Origin: Collinsella aerofaciens | Lineage (GTDB): Bacteria; Actinomycetota; Coriobacteriia; Coriobacteriales; Coriobacteriaceae | Direction of reading: 5' to 3' | DNA: 64,000 nucleotides | Assembly: GCF_020181355.1 (NCBI RefSeq) | Contig: NZ_CP084004.1 | Coordinates: 310,001 to 374,000, forward strand | Part shown: positions 1,768 through 59,359 of the stretch, piece after piece | Layout of the letters: each line of letters starts with the position of its first letter | Numbering within the stretch: the stretch's first letter is position 1 | Translations under genes and position numbers: made by a program | Notes under the pieces: model-generated | Told to the model about the DNA's origin: nothing | What the model saw: only the letters and a program-made list of their open reading frames with translations | Database searches by the model: none

Positions 1768-2046
1768 TTAGAACGGCGCGTACTCGTCGTACAGGTCATC
1801 GGTCTCGCCGGAGGCATTGACCTGCTCGACACGCGTAACGCCGGGCACGTGCTCCTTGAGGATACGCTCGATGCCCATGGAAAGCGTCAGGGCGCTCATG
1901 GGACAACCGGCACAGGCGCCCTGAAGCTCCAGCTTGACGACGCCCTCGTCATCAACGCCTATATACTCCATGTCGCCGCCGTCGGCCTGTAGGTTGGGGC
2001 GAATCTCTTCAAGAACCTTCTTAAGCAGCTCTTCGTTAACAGCCAC
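1768..2046 (-). CDS. NifU-like (NFU) Fe-S scaffold protein
   Basis: 92-aa protein consisting only of the NifU C-terminal domain: an acidic helical N-terminus, QADGGDMEYIGVDDEG, then the CxxC motif CAGCPMS that binds an Fe-S cluster between subunits, then ILKEHVPGV. Such stand-alone NFU proteins act as Fe-S cluster scaffolds or carriers in the cytosol. It starts at a GTG preceded by AGAAAGGAG, which is unusual but well supported by the ribosome site. About 100 bp upstream of lgt on the same strand; an operon is possible. Confidence 0.9.
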   Translation of the reverse strand: MAVNEELLKKVLEEIRPNLQADGGDMEYIGVDDEGVVKLELQGACAGCPMSALTLSMGIERILKEHVPGVTRVEQVNASGETDDLYDEYAPF

Positions 2047-2155
2047 AGGGGCTCCTTTCTCACAATAACGCGGGCGCGCCCGCGGACAGAGCTATGTTAC
2101 TACAGCCGTGTACCCGCTCACGAGCCGTCCATGCGCGCAGACGCGACTTTCACGA

Positions 2156-3735: not shown

Positions 3736-3842
3736 GGTAGTCATTTTGGGACGGGGCTATTTTAGCTACCCCAATATGTCGGTTGATATTTGCCCCAATC
3801 CCAAATAATTCGTCGACTGTCAAAGGGTAGCTAAAATAGCCC
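3736..3842. repeat. Palindromic element cut by IS110 (left arm and part of right arm)
   Basis: The left arm (3736-3772) is a 37-bp sequence. Its reverse complement is present in two pieces: 3825-3842 before the IS and 5377-5394 after it. Joining AGCCC at 3842 to CGTCCC at 5377 restores the inverted repeat exactly, including the run of four C. The spacer between arms is about 52 bp. This fixes the insertion site of the IS without any target duplication. Confidence 0.85.
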
Positions 3843-36516: not shown

Positions 36517-36583
36517 AGTTGCGGTGATATAGTTCCGATTTATGCTGTTAAACAGCTTAAATCGGAACTATATCACCGCAACT
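36517..36583. repeat. 67-bp near-perfect palindrome (AGTTGCGGTG family)
   Basis: 26-bp perfect arms (36517-36542 and 36558-36583) surround an inner palindrome GCTGTT-A-AACAGC. TTTTATGG follows. The outer 19 bp differ from the palindrome at 59293-59359 at only two positions, so it is a dispersed element. It lies between the radical SAM gene and map. Confidence 0.85.
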
Positions 36584-41616: not shown

Positions 41617-42696
41617 ATGCTTAGGATCGGTCTTCTTACCAGTGGCGGCGACTGCCAGGCGCTCAACGCCACCATGCGCGGCATTGTCAAAACGCTTATG
41701 ACCAATAGCGAAGAGCCTATTGAGATCTATGGTTTTGAGGACGGCTACCAGGGCCTTATCTACAGCCGGTTCCGCGTCATGACGCCCGCCGATTTTAGCG
41801 GCATCCTTACCCGTGGCGGCACCATCCTGGGCACGAGCCGTACGCCGTTCAAGCGCCTGGATATTCCCGAGGCCGACGGCGTCGAGAAGGTGCCGGCAAT
41901 GGTCCACACCTATCATAAGCTGCAGCTCGACTGCCTGTTTATGCTGGGCGGCAACGGCTCCACCAAGACCGCCAACCGTCTGCGCGAAGAGGGCCTCAAC
42001 GTTATCGCCCTGCCTAAGACCATCGATAACGACACCTGGGGCACCGAGCTGACGTTTGGCTTTACGAGCGCCATCGACGTCGCCACCAAGTGCATCGACG
42101 ACATTCACACCACCGCTTCGAGTCACGGCCGCGTGTTCGTTATCGAGATCATGGGCCACAAGGTTGGCTGGATCCCGCTATACGCCGGCGTCGCGGGCGG
42201 CGCGGATGTCATCTTGATTCCCGAGATCCCCTACGACATGGATAACGTCATCAAGACCATCGAGCATCGCATGGAGACCGGCAGCCGCTTTACCATCGTG
42301 GCCGTCGCCGAGGGCGCTATCTCCAAGGAGGACGCGGCGCTGTCCAAGAAGGAGTACAAGAAGAAACTCGCCGAGCGCACGAGCCCGTCGATCGTCTACG
42401 ACATCGCCAAGGAGATCGAGGCCAAGACCGGTCGCGAGACCCGCGTCGCCATCCCCGGCCACACGCAGCGCGGCGGCCAGCCCGACGCCCAGGACCGCAT
42501 CTTTGCGACCCAGTGCGGCGTCGAGGCGGCACTGGGCTGTCTACGCGGCGAGTTTGGCTACATGATCGCCCTGCGTGACGGCAAGATGTGTCACATGCCG
42601 CTCGAGGATGTCGCCGGCAAGCTCAAGTATGTCGATCCCCAGAGCGATCTGGTGCGCGAGGCCAAGGCGTTGGGCATCAGCTTCGGCGACGAATAG
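41617..42696 (+). CDS. pfkA: 6-phosphofructokinase
   Basis: 359-aa PFK-A family enzyme that phosphorylates fructose 6-phosphate in glycolysis. Motifs: LTSGGDCQALNA (phosphate loop), GGNGSTKTA (111-119), PKTIDNDTWGTE (133-144), EIMGHKVGWIPLYAG and GHTQRGGQPDAQDR. ATP enzymes usually have GGDGS and PGTIDND; PPi enzymes GGDDS and PKTIDGD. This one combines Gly114 with Lys134 and replaces the Mg-binding Asp by Asn, so donor preference is uncertain. GGAAGG lies before the ATG. A large structured element starts at its stop codon. Confidence 0.9.
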   Translation: MLRIGLLTSGGDCQALNATMRGIVKTLMTNSEEPIEIYGFEDGYQGLIYSRFRVMTPADFSGILTRGGTILGTSRTPFKRLDIPEADGVEKVPAMVHTYHKLQLDCLFMLGGNGSTKTANRLREEGLNVIALPKTIDNDTWGTELTFGFTSAIDVATKCIDDIHTTASSHGRVFVIEIMGHKVGWIPLYAGVAGGADVILIPEIPYDMDNVIKTIEHRMETGSRFTIVAVAEGAISKEDAALSKKEYKKKLAERTSPSIVYDIAKEIEAKTGRETRVAIPGHTQRGGQPDAQDRIFATQCGVEAALGCLRGEFGYMIALRDGKMCHMPLEDVAGKLKYVDPQSDLVREAKALGISFGDE

Positions 42697-42862
42697 CCTC
42701 GGCCGAAACTGCTCTCATCGGAGACCCCAGGGCTTACCTCCCAAATCGTCCTCGGACATGTCAGGATCCCGCCGTGCGCTTCGCGCGGCGGGATCCTTCC
42801 GTCCTGCGGAAAGATTTGGGAGGTAAGCCCTAGGGCCTCCTGCGGTGACTGGGGAGGCCGAG
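42694..42862 (+). repeat. Structured 3' element, member 1 (downstream of pfkA)
   Basis: Outer 19-bp perfect stem AGGGCTTACCTCCCAAATC (42729-42747) with 42813-42831. The internal loop is GTCCTCGGACATGTC on the left and CGTCCTGCGGAAA on the right. The inner 12-bp stem AGGATCCCGCCG is capped by GCGCTTCGCG. An additional outermost pairing CTCGGCC/GGCCGAG begins beside the stop codon. Internal-loop motifs GTCCTCG and CTGCGGA recur in the elements after asd and thrB. Confidence 0.75.
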
Positions 42863-42895
42863 ACTATTCGTCTTCTTGCTGCGGGTGCCTGGGGT

Positions 42896-50872: not shown

Positions 50873-51002
50873 GGCGGGGGCCGGGCTCAGTTTTCAGAAC
50901 ACTCCGCAGACCAGTGTGGCGCCTTGTCCGCGGCTCCGAAGGAGCAGGACAAGGCGCCACACATGGTCGAGGACGTTCTGAAAACTGAGCCCGGCCCCCG
51001 CC
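50873..51002 (-). repeat. Structured 3' element, member 2 (downstream of asd)
   Basis: Read in the sense of asd: 28-bp perfect outer stem (51002-50975 with 50900-50873), internal loop GTCCTCGACCATG / CTGGTCTGCGGAGT, 15-bp perfect inner stem TGTGGCGCCTTGTCC (50961-50947 with 50929-50915) and apex TGCTCCTTCGGAGCCGC. It starts 12 bp after the asd stop. Internal-loop and apex motifs match the element after thrB while stems do not. Confidence 0.82.
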
Positions 51003-51014
51003 GGACAGGTCACA

Positions 51015-52040
51015 CTACTCGCAGAGCAGCTTAGCGATCTGGACGGCGTTGGTTGCCGCGCCCTTACGGATTTGGTCACCGCAGCACCAGAAGGTAATGC
51101 CACGCGCGGCCTCCGGGTTCGAGATGTCGCGGCGCACGCGGCCGACCCAAATCAGGTCCTGGTCGGAGGTGTCCATCGGCATGGGGAAGCGGTCGTGTGC
51201 ATCCTCGGCAGCCATATCGTCAACCAGCTTGACGCCGGGAGCGGCAGCCAGCGCAGCACGAGCCTCCTCGACCGTAATATCGCGCTCAAACTCGAGCGTA
51301 ATGCTCTCGGAGTGCGAACGCAGCACGGGCACGCGCACGCAGGTGCAGTTCACGCGCAACTCGGGCAGGTGCATGATCTTACGGCCCTCGTTCTGCAGCT
51401 TCATCTCCTCGGAGGTAAAGCCTTCCTCCTTGACGCCGCCGATCTGCGGAATCAGGTTGCTCGCCAGCTGGGCGGCAAACGCGCGCGGCTCGGGAATCTC
51501 CTCGCCGCGGCCCAGGGCGGCCAGCTGAGCCTCGAGCTCGGCCATACCGGGAGCGCCGGCACCCGAAGCCGCCTGATACGTCGAGACGATCATGCGCTTC
51601 ACACCGGCGAGCTGATGCAGCGGCCACGTGGGAACCAGGCCGATGATGGTCGCGCAGTTGGGGTTGGCGATAAGGCCGTGATGCCACTTGATATCGTCGG
51701 CATTGATCTCGGGCACGACCAGCGGCACCTCGGGGTCCATGCGGAAGGCATGGCTGTTATCGACCACGACGGCACCGCGCTTGACGGCCTCGGGCAGCAG
51801 CTCCTTGGCGATGTCGTCGCCGGCGGCGCCAAGCACAATATCGCAGCCCTCAAAGGCCTCGGGGCAAGCCTCTTCGATCACAATCTGCTCGCCGCGGAAC
51901 TCAACGGTCTTGCCCGCGGAGCGTGCACTTGCCAGCAGTTTGAGCTTACCGACCGGAAACTCCTGCTCGTTGAGGCACTCGAGCATCTGGGTGCCCACGG
52001 CTCCCGTCGCGCCCAAAATAGCAACCGTGTACTGTTTCAT
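51015..52040 (-). CDS. asd: Aspartate-semialdehyde dehydrogenase
   Basis: 341-aa enzyme reducing aspartyl phosphate to aspartate semialdehyde, the branch point to lysine, threonine and methionine. The N-terminal NADP motif is ILGATGAVGTQML, catalytic Cys is in NPNCATI, and the substrate/His region is VPVLRSHSES. The ATG at 52040 has AAAGGGGGAAGC; longer in-frame starts lack a site. It lies downstream of lysC on the same strand, with hairpins between. Confidence 0.94.
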   Translation of the reverse strand: MKQYTVAILGATGAVGTQMLECLNEQEFPVGKLKLLASARSAGKTVEFRGEQIVIEEACPEAFEGCDIVLGAAGDDIAKELLPEAVKRGAVVVDNSHAFRMDPEVPLVVPEINADDIKWHHGLIANPNCATIIGLVPTWPLHQLAGVKRMIVSTYQAASGAGAPGMAELEAQLAALGRGEEIPEPRAFAAQLASNLIPQIGGVKEEGFTSEEMKLQNEGRKIMHLPELRVNCTCVRVPVLRSHSESITLEFERDITVEEARAALAAAPGVKLVDDMAAEDAHDRFPMPMDTSDQDLIWVGRVRRDISNPEAARGITFWCCGDQIRKGAATNAVQIAKLLCE

Positions 52041-52114
52041 GCTTCCCCCTTTAAAGGTTGTGGCTATCGCCCGCACGCCAAGCAGGCCGATTATTGTTGC
52101 CAGTGTATACAAGA

Positions 52115-52141
52115 ACGGGGCGGGCACGAAACCCGCCCCGT
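52115..52141 (-). terminator. Strong hairpin between lysC and asd
   Basis: ACGGGGCGGG and its complement (10 bp, GC-rich) with a 7-nt loop; followed on the minus strand by TTCTTG. It may reduce read-through from lysC to asd. Confidence 0.5.
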
Positions 52142-52172
52142 CGAAACGAAACCGAAACGAAACGCCCCGCCG

Positions 52173-52202
52173 TAGATTTTTGAGGCGAGTCCCAAAAATC
52201 TA
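52173..52202 (-). terminator. Hairpin just after lysC
   Basis: TAGATTTTTG and CAAAAATCTA (10 bp perfect) flank AGGCGAGTCC, 12 bp after the lysC stop. The loop has GGGACTC in the minus sense, like other hairpins in this window. Confidence 0.5.
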
Positions 52203-52214
52203 GCGAGATAGCAG

Positions 52215-53603
52215 CTACTTGTGGAGCGCAGCCAGAGCAGGATCGACCGGCGCGGAAGCCTCCAGGTCGGAGACCTTCACAATGCCGTTCTCATCGGAGA
52301 AGGCACGGTAAATGGTCCGAATCGCCAGATCGAAGTCCTTCTCCTCCACGCCAATGATGATGTTGATCTCGTCGCAGCTCTGCGAAATCATGCGCACGCT
52401 CACGCCGGCCTGGCCAAGCATGCCAAACAGATGGCCCGAGATACCTGCGCGGCCACGCAGGTTACGGCCGACGGTCGCGATGAGCGCCAGGCCCTCGACA
52501 ACCTCGATCTCGAGCGGCTCGACCTCCTGCTGAATGTCGCCCACAAGCGAGTACAGCGAGTCGTGCACGTCCTGCTCCTGCACCACGGCGCCAAAGCGGT
52601 CGACACCGGTGGGCATGTGCTCGACGGAAACGTCATAGCGCTCGAAGACCGAAAGCGCGCGGCGCATAAAGCCAACACGGGGCTTGGTGCGGTCGCGGGC
52701 AACGTTGATGGCGACAAAGCCGCGCTTGCCGGTCACGCCGGTAATGATGGGCTCTGCCTCACCCTCATCAGCCGTCTCGCTAATGATGGTGCCGGGGTCC
52801 TGCGGCGCATTGGTGTTCTTGATGACCAGCGGAATACCCGCCTCGCGCACGGGGAACACGGCCTCCTCGTGCAGGACGCTTGCACCCATGTACGAAAGTT
52901 CGCGCAGCTCCTCGTAGGTAACGCGCGCAATGGGCTGAGCCTCGGGAACAATACGAGGATCGGCAGAATAGAAGCCCGAGACGTCGGTCCAGTTCTCGTA
53001 CAAGTCGGCGCCCAGGCACTTGGCCAGGATCGAGCCGGAAATATCGCCGCCGCCACGGTCGAGCAGCTTGATCTGGCCCTCACGCGTCGCGCCGTAGAAA
53101 CCGGGCATAACAAAGCCGCCCTGCTGGCCGTACTCCTGCACCAGCTCGGAGGTGCGATTCATGCTGAGCGTACCGTCATGATGGAACGCCACAACCGTCG
53201 CGGCGTCCAGGAACGGCAGGCCCAGGTACTCCGCCATCAGGCGAGCGGTGAAGTACTCGCCACGGCTCACGAGCTCCTCGGTAGAGTAGCCGCCCGAGCG
53301 GGCGCGCTCGGCAAAGGCCGCGAACTCCTCGCGGATGGGATAGGTGAGCTCCAGCTCGTCAGCGATATCAAAATAGCGCTGGCCAATGTCCTCGAGCAGC
53401 TCCTCACACGACACGTGATACTTAACGTGCGCGTTAACCAGGTAGAGCAGGTCGGTCACCTTGGTGTCGCCCTTAAAGCGGCGGCCGCAGGCGGAAACCA
53501 CCACAAAACGGCGGGCAGGGTCGGCATCGACGATGGCCTTGATCTTCTTGAAGTGTTCGGCGTCGGCGACCGACGAGCCGCCAAACTTGGCAATCTTAAT
53601 CAT
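52215..53603 (-). CDS. lysC: Aspartate kinase
   Basis: 462-aa kinase catalysing the first step of the aspartate family. Motifs: IAKFGGSSVAD (substrate/ATP loop), GRRFKGDTKVTDLLY, ELVSRGEYFTARLMAEYLG, LDRGGGDISGSILAKCLGADLYENWTDVSGFYSADPR and two C-terminal ACT-like domains (about 310-450; VGRNLRGRAGISGHLFGMLGQAGVSVRMISQ), which usually bind feedback inhibitors lysine or threonine. GAAAGG lies before the ATG. It is divergent from thrC, so their promoters share about 100 bp. Confidence 0.94.
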   Translation of the reverse strand: MIKIAKFGGSSVADAEHFKKIKAIVDADPARRFVVVSACGRRFKGDTKVTDLLYLVNAHVKYHVSCEELLEDIGQRYFDIADELELTYPIREEFAAFAERARSGGYSTEELVSRGEYFTARLMAEYLGLPFLDAATVVAFHHDGTLSMNRTSELVQEYGQQGGFVMPGFYGATREGQIKLLDRGGGDISGSILAKCLGADLYENWTDVSGFYSADPRIVPEAQPIARVTYEELRELSYMGASVLHEEAVFPVREAGIPLVIKNTNAPQDPGTIISETADEGEAEPIITGVTGKRGFVAINVARDRTKPRVGFMRRALSVFERYDVSVEHMPTGVDRFGAVVQEQDVHDSLYSLVGDIQQEVEPLEIEVVEGLALIATVGRNLRGRAGISGHLFGMLGQAGVSVRMISQSCDEINIIIGVEEKDFDLAIRTIYRAFSDENGIVKVSDLEASAPVDPALAALHK

Positions 53604-53706
53604 GGGCTTGAGGTTACCTTTCTAAAAGCCTCTGCAAACCTGTTTTGCGCGCTCTGATACCATGGTTTCACCGATTGGGACCAAGGCATCCGAGGAGCAG
53701 TGTTAT

Positions 53707-55224
53707 ATGGGAACTTATCATAGTACACGAGGACGCACTTTATCGTGCTCAAGTAAGGTGGCAATCCGCACCGGCATCGCTCCCGACGGGGGTCTGTTTG
53801 TCTCGGACGAGCTCGGCACCCAGCAGGTCGATATCAGCTCGCTTGCAGATAAATCGTACTTTGAAATCGCTCAAGATGTGTTGGGAATGTTACTGAATGA
53901 TTACACGACCGAAGAAATTTCGGCGTGTGTCGACGAGGCATACCGCGGCACGTTCGCGAGTGAAGAGGTTACGCCGCTCGTCAAACTCGACGCTGCGCCG
54001 GGCGCTGACGCCCCTCAGACCTATGTGATGGAGCTCTTTGGCGGCCCCACGAGCGCCTTTAAGGACGTCGCCCTGCAGATGCTCCCCCGCTTGATGGCCC
54101 GCACTTCCGCCAAGGACGGCGGCGCCGAGCGCATCATGATCGTCACCGCCACGTCGGGCGACACCGGCAAGGCCGCACTTGCCGGTTTTGCCGACGCCCC
54201 GGGCACGGGCATCACCGTCTTTTATCCCGAGGGCAAGGTCAGCCGCGTGCAGAATCTGCAGATGTCCACGCAGGAGGGCGGCAACGTCGCCGTCTGCGGC
54301 ATCCGCGGCAACTTCGACGACGCCCAGAGCGCCGTCAAGCGCATCTTTGCCGATAAGGAGCTGGCCGAGCGCCTTGAAGCCGCCGGCACGGTGCTTTCGA
54401 GCGCCAACTCCATCAACGTCGGGCGCCTGGTGCCGCAGGTCGTCTACTACTTTGCCGCCTATGCGCAGCTGCTGCGCGCCGGTGCCATCGAGGCCGGCAA
54501 TGCCGTGGAGTTCTGCGTGCCGACCGGCAACTTTGGCGATATCCTGGCCGGCTACTACGCCAAGCGCATGGGTCTGCCCGTTGCCAAGCTCATCGTCGCG
54601 AGCGACAAGAACAACGTTCTGGCTGACTTCCTGACCACCGGCGTCTACGACCGCAACCGTCCGTTCTTCACGACCATCTCGCCGTCGATGGACATCCTCA
54701 TCAGCTCCAACCTGGAGCGCATGCTGTACTTCCTGTCCGGTGGCGACTGCGAGCTCGTTGCCGGCCTTATGGAGCAGCTGGCACAGACTGGTCGCTATGA
54801 GGTTCCCGCCGACCTGCTGGCAAAGATTCAGAGCGTGTTTGGCTGCGGCTGGGCCAGCGAGGACGAGGTCCGCGCCGCCATCAAGAGCTGCTGGGACGCC
54901 AACGGCTACGTGATCGACCCGCACACCGCCTGTGGCTATCACGTCTTTGAGCAGGTCGCCCCCGCCGAGGGCGCTAAGGCCCGCGTGCTGCTTTCGACCG
55001 CCAGCCCCTACAAGTTCCCACGCGCCTGCTGCGACGCCCTGGGCCTCGACGTTCCCGAGGATGATTTTGAGGCCATGCGTGTACTCGAGCAGGCCACCAA
55101 CACGGTCGCCCCGACCCAGCTCGCCGAGCTCGAGTCCAAACCCGTCCGCTTCGAAGACGTCTGCGACGTAGCCGACATGGCCAACTACGTAGAGTCTGCA
55201 GCAAAAAAGATGGCTACCAACTAA
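53707..55224 (+). CDS. thrC: Threonine synthase
   Basis: 505-aa PLP enzyme converting O-phosphohomoserine to threonine. N-terminal YHSTRGRTLSCS, the PLP lysine in FGGPTSAFKDVALQML, and TATSGDTGKAALAGFAD are typical of the long (E. coli/yeast-like) class. The ATG at 53707 follows GAGGAGCAGTG by 9 nt; an in-frame ATG at 53662 lacks a site. An intrinsic terminator and a structured repeat separate it from thrB. Confidence 0.94.
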   Translation: MGTYHSTRGRTLSCSSKVAIRTGIAPDGGLFVSDELGTQQVDISSLADKSYFEIAQDVLGMLLNDYTTEEISACVDEAYRGTFASEEVTPLVKLDAAPGADAPQTYVMELFGGPTSAFKDVALQMLPRLMARTSAKDGGAERIMIVTATSGDTGKAALAGFADAPGTGITVFYPEGKVSRVQNLQMSTQEGGNVAVCGIRGNFDDAQSAVKRIFADKELAERLEAAGTVLSSANSINVGRLVPQVVYYFAAYAQLLRAGAIEAGNAVEFCVPTGNFGDILAGYYAKRMGLPVAKLIVASDKNNVLADFLTTGVYDRNRPFFTTISPSMDILISSNLERMLYFLSGGDCELVAGLMEQLAQTGRYEVPADLLAKIQSVFGCGWASEDEVRAAIKSCWDANGYVIDPHTACGYHVFEQVAPAEGAKARVLLSTASPYKFPRACCDALGLDVPEDDFEAMRVLEQATNTVAPTQLAELESKPVRFEDVCDVADMANYVESAAKKMATN

Positions 55225-55235
55225 ACCCCATATAA

Positions 55236-55266
55236 GGCGCCGGCGAAAGCCGGCGCACCTTCTTTT
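55236..55266 (+). terminator. Intrinsic terminator of thrC
   Basis: GGCGCCGGC-GAAA-GCCGGCGC stem-loop (GNRA loop), followed by ACCTTCTTTT. Confidence 0.85.
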
Positions 55267-55302
55267 ATCAGATACCTACCGGGATGATGACGAACGTGCA
55301 TA

Positions 55303-55414
55303 GCGTGCCTGGCTGTTTAGTTCGTCGCGAGTTCCGCACGCAAAGGAAAGCACTTAATGTGCTTTCCGTCTTGCGCAGGACTGCCCGAGCAGCGAACTAA
55401 ACAGCCAGGCACGC
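55303..55414. repeat. Structured element between thrC and thrB, probable member 4
   Basis: 22-bp perfect outer stem GCGTGCCTGGCTGTTTAGTT+CG (55303-55324 with 55393-55414), inner stem GGAAAGCAC/GTGCTTTCC closed by an outer CGCAA/TTGCG. On the minus strand the internal loops read GGGCAGTCCTG and TGCGGAACTCG, resembling the GTCCTCG and CTGCGGA motifs of the other members. It ends 4 bp before the thrB ribosome site, so it lies in the thrB leader. Confidence 0.65.
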
Positions 55415-55427
55415 CAGGAGGACTCAC

Positions 55428-56309
55428 ATGATCAAGATCACCGTCCCAGCAACAAGCGCCAACTTGGGCATTGGCTACGATACCCTCGGCATGGCCGTCA
55501 GCCTCTACTCGCACTTTACCTTTGAGCGCGCCGACAAGCTCACCATCACGGGCTGCCCCGAAGAGTTCCAAAACGAGAATAACCTGGTCTATGTAAGCTT
55601 TGTCGATGCTCTGGCCGCCTGGGGCGAGCCGGCTTTTCCCGTTGCCATCGACATCCAGACCGACGTGCCCGTCGCCCGCGGCCTGGGCTCCAGCTCCACC
55701 TGCGTCGTCGCCGGCATTATGGCCGCCGCCGCACTGACAGGCCACACCGTCGACCGCGCCGAGCTGGTTCGCATCGCCACCGAGGTCGAGGGCCATCCCG
55801 ATAACGTCGCCCCCGCTATCCTGGGCGGCGCCGTCTGCTCCTTTACGCCGACCGATTCGCTCCCCCAGTGCCTGCGCTACGAGGTGAGCGATCGCCTGCG
55901 TTTTATTACCGTGATTCCGCCCTACGAGGTACACACGAGCGAGGCGCGCAAGGTCGTGCCGCAGGAGATTCCGCTCTCCACCGCCGTGTGGCAGATGGGC
56001 CGCATCGCCGGTATGACGCGCGGCTTGGAGACCGGTGACCTCAACCTGATTGCCGCCGCCAATGACGACCGCATTCAGGAGCCCTATCGTCGCCGCCTGA
56101 TTCCCGACTACAACGCCGTGCGCAACACCTGCCTTAACGGCGGCGCTAAGACCATCTGGATTAGCGGCTCGGGCTCGACCCTCATGGCTGTGACCGACGA
56201 CACCATCGTGGCAAAGTTCCTGCAGGTCAAGCTGCGCGAGCAGTTCCCTAAGTGTGATACGCATATTCTGACGTGCGACACGGAAGGCGCTCAAATCGAG
56301 TACCTGTAG
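55428..56309 (+). CDS. thrB: Homoserine kinase
   Basis: 293-aa GHMP-family kinase phosphorylating homoserine. Motifs: VPATSANLGIGYDTLGMA (motif 1), VARGLGSSSTCVVAG (ATP loop), ATEVEGHPDNVAPAILGG and WISGSGSTLMAV. Together with thrC it makes threonine from homoserine; homoserine dehydrogenase is not in the window. AGGAGG precedes the ATG. The structured element of 56306-56486 starts on its stop codon. Confidence 0.94.
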   Translation: MIKITVPATSANLGIGYDTLGMAVSLYSHFTFERADKLTITGCPEEFQNENNLVYVSFVDALAAWGEPAFPVAIDIQTDVPVARGLGSSSTCVVAGIMAAAALTGHTVDRAELVRIATEVEGHPDNVAPAILGGAVCSFTPTDSLPQCLRYEVSDRLRFITVIPPYEVHTSEARKVVPQEIPLSTAVWQMGRIAGMTRGLETGDLNLIAAANDDRIQEPYRRRLIPDYNAVRNTCLNGGAKTIWISGSGSTLMAVTDDTIVAKFLQVKLREQFPKCDTHILTCDTEGAQIEYL

Positions 56310-56486
56310 ACATCGCCGATCGGTCTGTCCGGGCCACCCAGGGGCATCCCCTTAAAAACGTCCTCGCACTTGAGGCCCACTTATCCTGCTCCTTCGGAGC
56401 TGCGGATAAGCGGGCCTCGTGCTGCGGAATGTTTTTAAGGGGATGCCCCTGGGTGGCCCTATGGCAACGTAGCTAGCGATGTCTAC
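56306..56486 (+). repeat. Structured 3' element, member 3 (downstream of thrB)
   Basis: Outermost 11-bp stem GTAGACATCGC (including the thrB TAG) with 56476-56486. Main 29-bp perfect stem 56331-56359 with 56431-56459. Internal loop GTCCTCGCACT / GTGCTGCGGAAT. 15-bp inner stem GAGGCCCACTTATCC (one mismatch) and apex TGCTCCTTCGGAGCTGC. Apex and loop sequences are nearly those of the asd element; stems are unrelated. Confidence 0.82.
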
Positions 56487-56567
56487 AGGGACCCACGCTT
56501 TGAAGGGGCGCCAGGCTGAAATCATGGCCTTTTATTGATAGGGGCTCTTGCTAGGCTGGGGCACTTA

Positions 56568-59292: not shown

Positions 59293-59359
59293 AGTTGCGG
59301 TGGAATAGTTCCTATTTGGGCGGCATAAGCCGAAAAACAAGAACTATTCCACCGCAACT
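59293..59359. repeat. 67-bp palindrome (AGTTGCGGTG family)
   Basis: 19-bp perfect arms AGTTGCGGTGGAATAGTTC and complement (59293-59311, 59341-59359) enclose an inner CGGC-ATAA-GCCG stem. The total length equals that of 36517-36583, and arms differ at two positions only. Confidence 0.8.

Follow-up and report, generated by a model that had tools for sequence, protein, structure and literature searches.

Gene-end hairpins with near-invariant internal loops and variable stems in Collinsella aerofaciens

Introduction

Template switching is documented as creating and maintaining hairpins (PMC8794818, Monttinen and Loytynoja 2022), and its action at highly transcribed quasi-palindromes has been described in yeast (PMC3820800); here and below, comparisons with published systems refer to the cited sections of the sources. 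We describe a family of hairpins at gene ends of Collinsella aerofaciens, three of which lie in the stretch of DNA that we analysed as a whole, a window of 64,000 nucleotides (contig NZ_CP084004.1, positions 310,001 to 374,000 of the forward strand), behind the genes asd, thrB and pfkA. They share with template-switch hairpins (PMC8794818) perfect stems, paired changes in the arms and reverse-complement copies of neighbouring sequence. The events in that study belong to the histories of RNA genes, whereas here we find a repeat family of one genus with fixed loops, hypervariable stems and exchanged modules. The mitochondrial palindromes of nematomorphs (PMC6649704) are likewise long perfect inverted repeats with concerted arms, for which template switching has been proposed. 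They differ in lying within coding genes, and the cited sections describe neither conserved internal loops nor a gene-end family.

Among bacterial repeats, the GTAG and CGTC super-families of repetitive extragenic palindromes (REPs; PMC3733652) are also palindromic, repeated, mostly downstream of genes and plausibly transcribed. They measure 20-40 bp, with stems of 8-9 bp in the CGTC families, and carry a terminal tag; our elements have outer stems of 28-29 bp, cores of 61-72 nt, internal loops and stems that are mostly locus-specific. By the size and terminal tag given in that source we dropped membership among REPs or CGTC-tagged palindromes. The pneumococcal BOX, RUP and SPRITE repeats (PMC3049150) are similar in being interspersed, in their extensive secondary structure and in their likely effect on co-transcribed genes. 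They were judged parasitic, whereas in Collinsella the positions recur across strains and the stems are locus-specific.

Collinsella-1 (RF01700, PMC2864571) resembles our elements as a candidate structured RNA named for the genus; Rfam scans of the window and ten element loci gave no match to it, although the presence of its model in the copy searched was not separately confirmed. A Collinsella candidate named in PMC8040213 lies upstream of L7/L12, a position different from that of the gene-end elements. With Rfam 15 at gathering score there were no matches in the window or in loci L002, L014 and L158, and none at an element in seven further loci, where one flavin mononucleotide (FMN) riboswitch was found elsewhere in L003. 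By E-value, only microRNA-family models matched the stems of L005 and L006, far below the cut-off. Word searches of the open-access literature for Collinsella repeats, hairpins, terminators and structured RNAs recovered no description of these elements.

Conserved loops within variable stems

The plan of the family combines an outer stem of 28-29 bp and an inner hairpin with a near-invariant internal loop, in which GTCCTC faces TGCGGA. Of 114 distinct outer stems, 83 measure 28 or 29 bp. Across 204 distinct elements a single base accounts for at least 98% at every one of the 12 loop positions, and the loops are perfect in 194 of them, a constancy that is partly built in, since the element detector tolerated at most one loop mismatch. 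They are perfect in all 13 copies of the genome from which the window comes. The base of the outer stem is bordered by a weaker motif, often TGTCC before it and TGCG or TACG after it. Taken alone, the loop pair is a weak signal: within the 64 kb it has three matches against 0.43 expected, and one of 100 shuffles reached three.

A first-pass annotation of the sequence had ascribed one plan to the elements behind asd and thrB, and we found outer stem, GTCCTC/TGCGGA loops, inner hairpin and apex again in both. The third element that it named, behind pfkA, is of the same family, but its apex differs and its outer stem is imperfect, with 93% complementarity. The further statement that the outer stems share nothing holds for asd and thrB, whose outer stems are unrelated in sequence, but not for asd and an oppF-like locus, which have 14 of 15 loop-adjacent bases of the outer arm in common.

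We searched for further copies with a covariance model (R1) trained on 16 copies, 13 of them from the genome of the window. In that genome the model finds 13 elements at no less than 82 bits, all of them training members, and no weaker ones; three extra rows at 39-50 bits are the opposite strands of three of the 13. Matches occur in 46 of 65 genomes of the family (E<=0.001), and 21 genomes of the same genus hold 10-18 copies each. We call these 21 the C. aerofaciens group, a label taken from copy number and named relatives rather than from a tree. Outside the group, G048 and G056 (72% complete) have 3-4 strong copies, and the others 0-8, mostly weak. An order-wide scan gave matches in 38 of 297 genomes at E<=1e-5. 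Four sister-clade or distant genomes have 6-11 matches each (E<=0.001), and a stem-and-loop script confirmed hairpins in six of 22 loci from such genomes (L339-L360); the matches there of about 41 bits or less, mostly without the loops, may be due to chance. More distant genomes contain a short form, GTCCTC-GCCC-TTT-GGGC-TGCGGA inside a long stem (22 hairpins, spread over 18 of the inspected loci), which also stands 3' of asd and thrB in C. tanakaei genomes, in a deep position. Identical copies were merged in the comparison of loci by genome, so an empty entry there need not mean absence. The idea that a covariance-model search would extend the family to many related genomes, with conserved loops, covarying stems and a position 3' of genes, was thus borne out.

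Inverted repeats with exact arms of 14 bp and spacers of 40-110 were also surveyed at 13 orthologous loci of the C. aerofaciens group. Of 40 such repeats, 24 have GTCCTC/TGCGGA loops, 11 have the GTCCT/TGCGGA loops of a sister form described below and five have neither, counts that are not independent because the loci are orthologues.

Position behind stop codons

In the genome of the window, 11 of the 13 copies follow the open reading frame (ORF) of a housekeeping gene in sense, with the loops reading in the sense of that gene and 38-63 nt between stop codon and loop. The family search added further host genes: iron alcohol dehydrogenase, Cpn60, class II aldolase, class IV aminotransferase, phosphoenolpyruvate (PEP) carboxylase, an oligopeptide ABC ATPase, a P-type ATPase and a glycyl-radical protein. 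The first-pass annotation had remarked that the elements behind asd and thrB both follow aspartate-pathway genes. Because pfkA, Cpn60, aldolase, PEP carboxylase and other gene classes carry the element as well, a general link of this kind is not supported, and we dropped a regulation of the aspartate pathway.

Two observations concern the surroundings of the elements. By eye, the DNA upstream of the two copies outside the pattern (L002, about 1000-1220; L014, about 1860-2100, minus strand) resembles the ends of two related transposases, and a Mutator-family transposase adjoins the pfkA element. Insertion sequences may favour these gene-end hairpins.

The position right behind stop codons, the convergent neighbours at several loci and the huge stability of the stems would suit transcription terminators, possibly bidirectional and of an unusual long-stem type without a U tract. 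A simple scan places one terminator-like site (51006-50989, minus strand) where the stem of the asd element begins, in a search that found 21 sites where 15.5 were expected. However, a run of five T within 25 nt 3' of the stem is present in none of 105 distinct outer-stem haplotypes, and only 10 of the 105 have one anywhere in the next ~100 nt; just 13 genes of this genome carry an element, and terminators have no need for conserved internal loops. From the absence of a U tract directly 3' of the stem (0 of 105) we reject a canonical intrinsic (Rho-independent) terminator, and we consider the long-stem variant very unlikely.

Paired changes and the wobble test

Compensatory change in both arms of a stem is usually taken as the best proof of a functional RNA. 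We paired every distinct outer stem with the most similar one found at its locus. The 90 close pairs (at most 8 of 56 sites differing) contain 39 paired changes that preserve Watson-Crick pairing, against about 1.3 expected if the arms changed independently, and 97 one-sided changes; over all 101 pairs the numbers are 121 paired (12.6 expected) and 110 one-sided. Paired changes thus lie far beyond the chance level, although stem defects are not removed at once. An excess of paired changes, expected of template switching, would also arise from compensation by selection.

If pairing is selected as RNA, G.U is expected to be tolerated over A.C. An initial count of stem defects gave 40 G.U to 19 A.C, with every stem counted and with G.U accepted as a match when stems were extended. 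Restricted to the inner 24 pairs and to independent events, the ratio is 16 to 15, and with 80 further stretches it is 27 to 27, with 14 other defects (independent locus-position events in 204 elements). RNase P served as a control: 28 sequences of the same bacterial family, analysed on the Rfam structure, gave 22 G.U, 4 A.C and 13 other events, and differ from the outer stem (Fisher p=0.003). The control covers 28 of 30 loci, two being without an anchor for excision, from 64 genomes matched; for every pair, each type of event is counted once across the family, which spans a wider divergence than the per-locus counts of the elements. The equality of G.U and A.C in the outer stem indicates that defects arise and vanish there regardless of RNA wobble. 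Outer-stem covariation, which the first-pass annotation had read as a possible sign of a selected RNA structure, therefore does not support that reading (27:27, unlike 22:4 in RNase P).

Ordinary structured RNA, in which pairing in the 3' untranslated region (UTR) is selected as RNA and the stems covary by point mutation and compensation, would account for the sense orientation, the set distance from the stop codon, the conserved loops, the strong covariation and the very stable predicted folds (-133 to -193 kcal/mol for the 13 copies of this genome with their flanks). The one-sided changes would be single mutations awaiting compensation, and the excess of G.U over A.C in the inner hairpin (50:22) would be in keeping with it. 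Such selection does not explain why G.U is no commoner than A.C in the outer stem, nor why some flanks copy the gene end (see below), and we regard it as unlikely.

Pairing of the outer stem by Watson-Crick rules without a preference for wobble would suit a site that acts as DNA, a cruciform or folded single strand to which a topoisomerase or a protein of the nucleoid or of DNA repair binds next to strongly transcribed genes. The palindromes do adjoin housekeeping genes, and the spacing between the loops is nearly fixed at 28-29 bp. However, the loops are strand-asymmetric and, in 11 of 13 copies, oriented like the gene that precedes them. A sink for supercoiling would not require invariant loops that are asymmetric, and the strong transcription of these genes is an assumption. 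We give a DNA-level site little credence.

Replacement of stems and exchange of inner hairpins

The thrB site carries elements of GCAC, GGAC, GCGC and GATC types in different strains, and their outer stems, at least four in number, are unrelated. A new GATC element in L045 and L046 precedes the decaying right half of an older element of the GCGC type, which indicates that elements are replaced in place. The same inner hairpin occurs at different loci (loci 4, 7 and 13; 1 and 7; 6 and 11); three further sharings (5/19, 8/15, 9/18) are probably single loci split by clustering. Conversely, nearly the same outer stem holds different inner hairpins at loci 8, 11, 12, 13 and 14, and locus 10 is listed as well, though by way of a one-base difference in length. 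From the inner hairpins shared between loci, and those swapped within one outer stem, we conclude that an inner hairpin is transferred as a whole, with the loops as its boundaries.

The downstream flank contains an inverted copy of the 3' end of the gene, scoring above all 342 cross-locus controls, at four of 19 loci: thrB, pfkA, the oppF-like gene and one more. Because coding sequence is constrained, copying most likely proceeded outward from the gene. The first-pass annotation had offered, as an alternative to RNA, a mobile core that inverts its flank. The exchange of inner hairpins between loci and the inverted gene ends in some flanks agree with this idea, which is thereby supported only in part.

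Mobility could also be of a parasitic kind, with REP-like hairpins placed after genes by a single-strand (Y1) transposase and the inner hairpin as the mobile unit. Modules are indeed repeated at different loci, an old thrB element was replaced in L045 and L046, and the genome has five Y1_Tnp genes, three of them RAYT-like by eye. However, the same loci recur across strains, copy number is steady within the group, and most loci differ in outer stems to the point of showing no relation, which would not be so for copies of a single transposon. Sites at thrB that lack an element were met in more distant genomes only, no search having been aimed at empty sites in close strains. No GTCCTC/TGCGGA pair at hairpin distance occurs in the 3.3-kb loci of the five Y1_Tnp genes, so that the arrangement of GTAG-REPs, a RAYT gene flanked by its repeats, is not found with these loops; in the three of five loci searched for inverted repeats, the one beside a Y1_Tnp gene is of another kind. 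These motif positions led us to drop mobilisation by the RAYT-like genes of this genome, and parasitic hairpins in general seem quite improbable. We also dropped a putative resemblance to integron attC sites.

Proposed origin and role of the hairpins

Our preferred explanation, held tentatively and at somewhat less than even confidence, is that these elements form one gene-end hairpin family whose stems are kept by copying from arm to arm and whose loops are selected, probably as a signal at the 3' end of mRNA. During replication the nascent strand would fold back in the hairpin and copy the opposite arm (template switching). The stem would then stay paired, drift as a pair and at times be re-made from neighbouring sequence; such copying would produce both paired drift without a wobble preference and inverted gene ends. 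Since copying alone would erase asymmetric loops, selection would have to hold them. A role in the transcript seems most likely because the loops read in the sense of the gene at a set distance from its stop codon: a rigid 3'-end structure, with loops read by a protein or RNase, might protect or process the mRNAs of housekeeping genes. Both copying as the mechanism and the existence of a reader protein are what we infer from these patterns.

Several points weigh against this explanation. Two of the 13 copies have no coding gene directly upstream in sense, and before thrB the sister form has the reverse orientation. In close pairs one-sided changes are more numerous than paired ones (97 to 39), 82 of the 121 paired changes overall stem from 11 very different pairs and represent wholesale replacement, and adjacent paired changes, which copied tracts of several bases would leave, are only slightly in excess (25 against 19.2 expected, in the 15 pairs that have 2-12 such changes). 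Taken for the C. aerofaciens group alone, the RNase P control is small (7 G.U, 2 A.C and 0 other events) and does not differ significantly from 27:27 (p=0.16). The G.U excess of the inner hairpin, 38 of 50 events at four constitutive positions near the apex, may reflect RNA-level selection on that part; 11 of its 22 A.C events lie at the ATG bulge. At 15 of 19 loci the inverted copy of the gene end does not exceed every control. The role in mRNA is deduced from sequence features, and template switching within an element gives no route by which an inner hairpin reaches another locus.

A more novel reading is a dedicated machinery with the loops as its working sites, which would nick or re-prime there, re-synthesise the stretch of stem from one loop to the next on the template of the opposite arm, and exchange inner hairpins between loci. 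We think this distinctly improbable. If true, it would amount to a standing system that rewrites stems and keeps the architecture, leaving each genome with different, equally well-paired gene-end hairpins.

By the wobble test, this family combines strong covariation with an outer stem whose pairing is maintained without regard to RNA pairing, and its loops look selected. If arm-to-arm copying with selected loops is the right explanation, the family would be a natural, countable system for the rate at which one hairpin arm overwrites the other and a caution where RNAs are discovered by covariation. It would also point to a signal at the 3' ends of housekeeping genes in a genus common in the gut.

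Features in the window

The asd and thrB elements share the apex CTTCGG, from which that of the pfkA element differs (Table 1). Asd proteins with 98-99% identity occur in C. aerofaciens and further Collinsella genomes and assign the window to this group. Clear counterparts of the stretch CTACAGGGACCCACGCTTTGAAGGGGCGCCAGGCTGA, which lies downstream of the thrB element (about 56485-56530), are present in C. bouchesdurhonensis (L057) and in C. tanakaei (L066), which suggests a further conserved 3' piece.

Table 1. Hairpin elements, host genes and inverted gene ends in the window (window coordinates)
Feature	Position	Strand	Basis	Details
asd gene-end hairpin, GACC type	50873..51002	minus	outer arms, loops and orthologues	outer arms 50873-50900 / 50975-51002, 28 nt each, 100% complementary; core 50903-50974 bounded by GTCCTC...TGCGGA loops, with inner stem and apex
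asd, aspartate-semialdehyde dehydrogenase	51015..52127	minus	NF011456, TIGR01296 above cut-off	
thrB gene-end hairpin, GCAC type	56331..56459	plus	outer arms and loops	outer stem 56331-56359 / 56431-56459, perfect, 29 bp; core 56360-56428 with conserved loops, inner hairpin and apex
thrB, homoserine kinase	55428..56309	plus	TIGR00191 above cut-off	
thrB last codon, stop codon and 7 nt	56304..56316	plus		CTGTAGACATCGC, left outermost arm
Inverted copy of thrB 3' end	56476..56488	plus	score above all 342 cross-locus controls	GCGATGTCTACAG, right outermost arm
pfkA gene-end hairpin, GGAC type	42720..42840	plus	arms and loops	outer arms 28 nt; core 42748-42810
pfkA, ATP-dependent 6-phosphofructokinase	41617..42696	plus	NF002872 above cut-off	
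pfkA 3' end including stop codon	42688..42704	plus		GACGAATAGCCTCGGCC, left outermost arm
Inverted copy of pfkA 3' end	42856..42872	plus	score above all 342 cross-locus controls	16/17 bases
Sister-form hairpin between thrC and thrB	55303..55414	minus	GTCCT...TGCGGA and a second internal loop	

Sister form and other repeats

The sister-form hairpin of the window stands directly before the ribosome-binding site of thrB, and its outer stem varies by strain. The sister pattern GAGTTCCGCACG...AGGACTG has 18 exact copies in the genome of the window, 15-22 in each of G002, G003, G004, G006 and G007, and 0-3 in the other seven genomes searched; a reversed control of the pattern does not occur in the genomes searched. 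At 12 of 27 other sister copies a predicted ORF of at least 200 codons converges on the hairpin, with 3-22 nt between its stop codon and the end of the stem, so sister hairpins seem, on the opposite strand, also to follow genes. The count of stem defects in the sister form is very small and non-independent. In Collinsella sp. BA40 (L074, minus strand, about 14262) the sister hairpin upstream of thrB is opposite in orientation to that of other species, which would be the expected outcome if spacers between inverted-repeat arms can invert.

Two other repeats were observed. A RAYT-like Y1 transposase gene carries, near its 3' end, a perfect inverted repeat of 36 bp with a spacer of 51 nt (L256, 951-1073). 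Its inner part (GGGCTATTTTAGCTACCC) recurs as an inverted repeat at 3754-3842 of the window, and the two possibly belong to a separate REP/RAYT-like repeat family. The window also contains a pair of inverted-repeat sites beginning AGTTGCGGTG...TAGTTCC, at 36517-36583 and 59293-59359, with arms of 25-33 nt.

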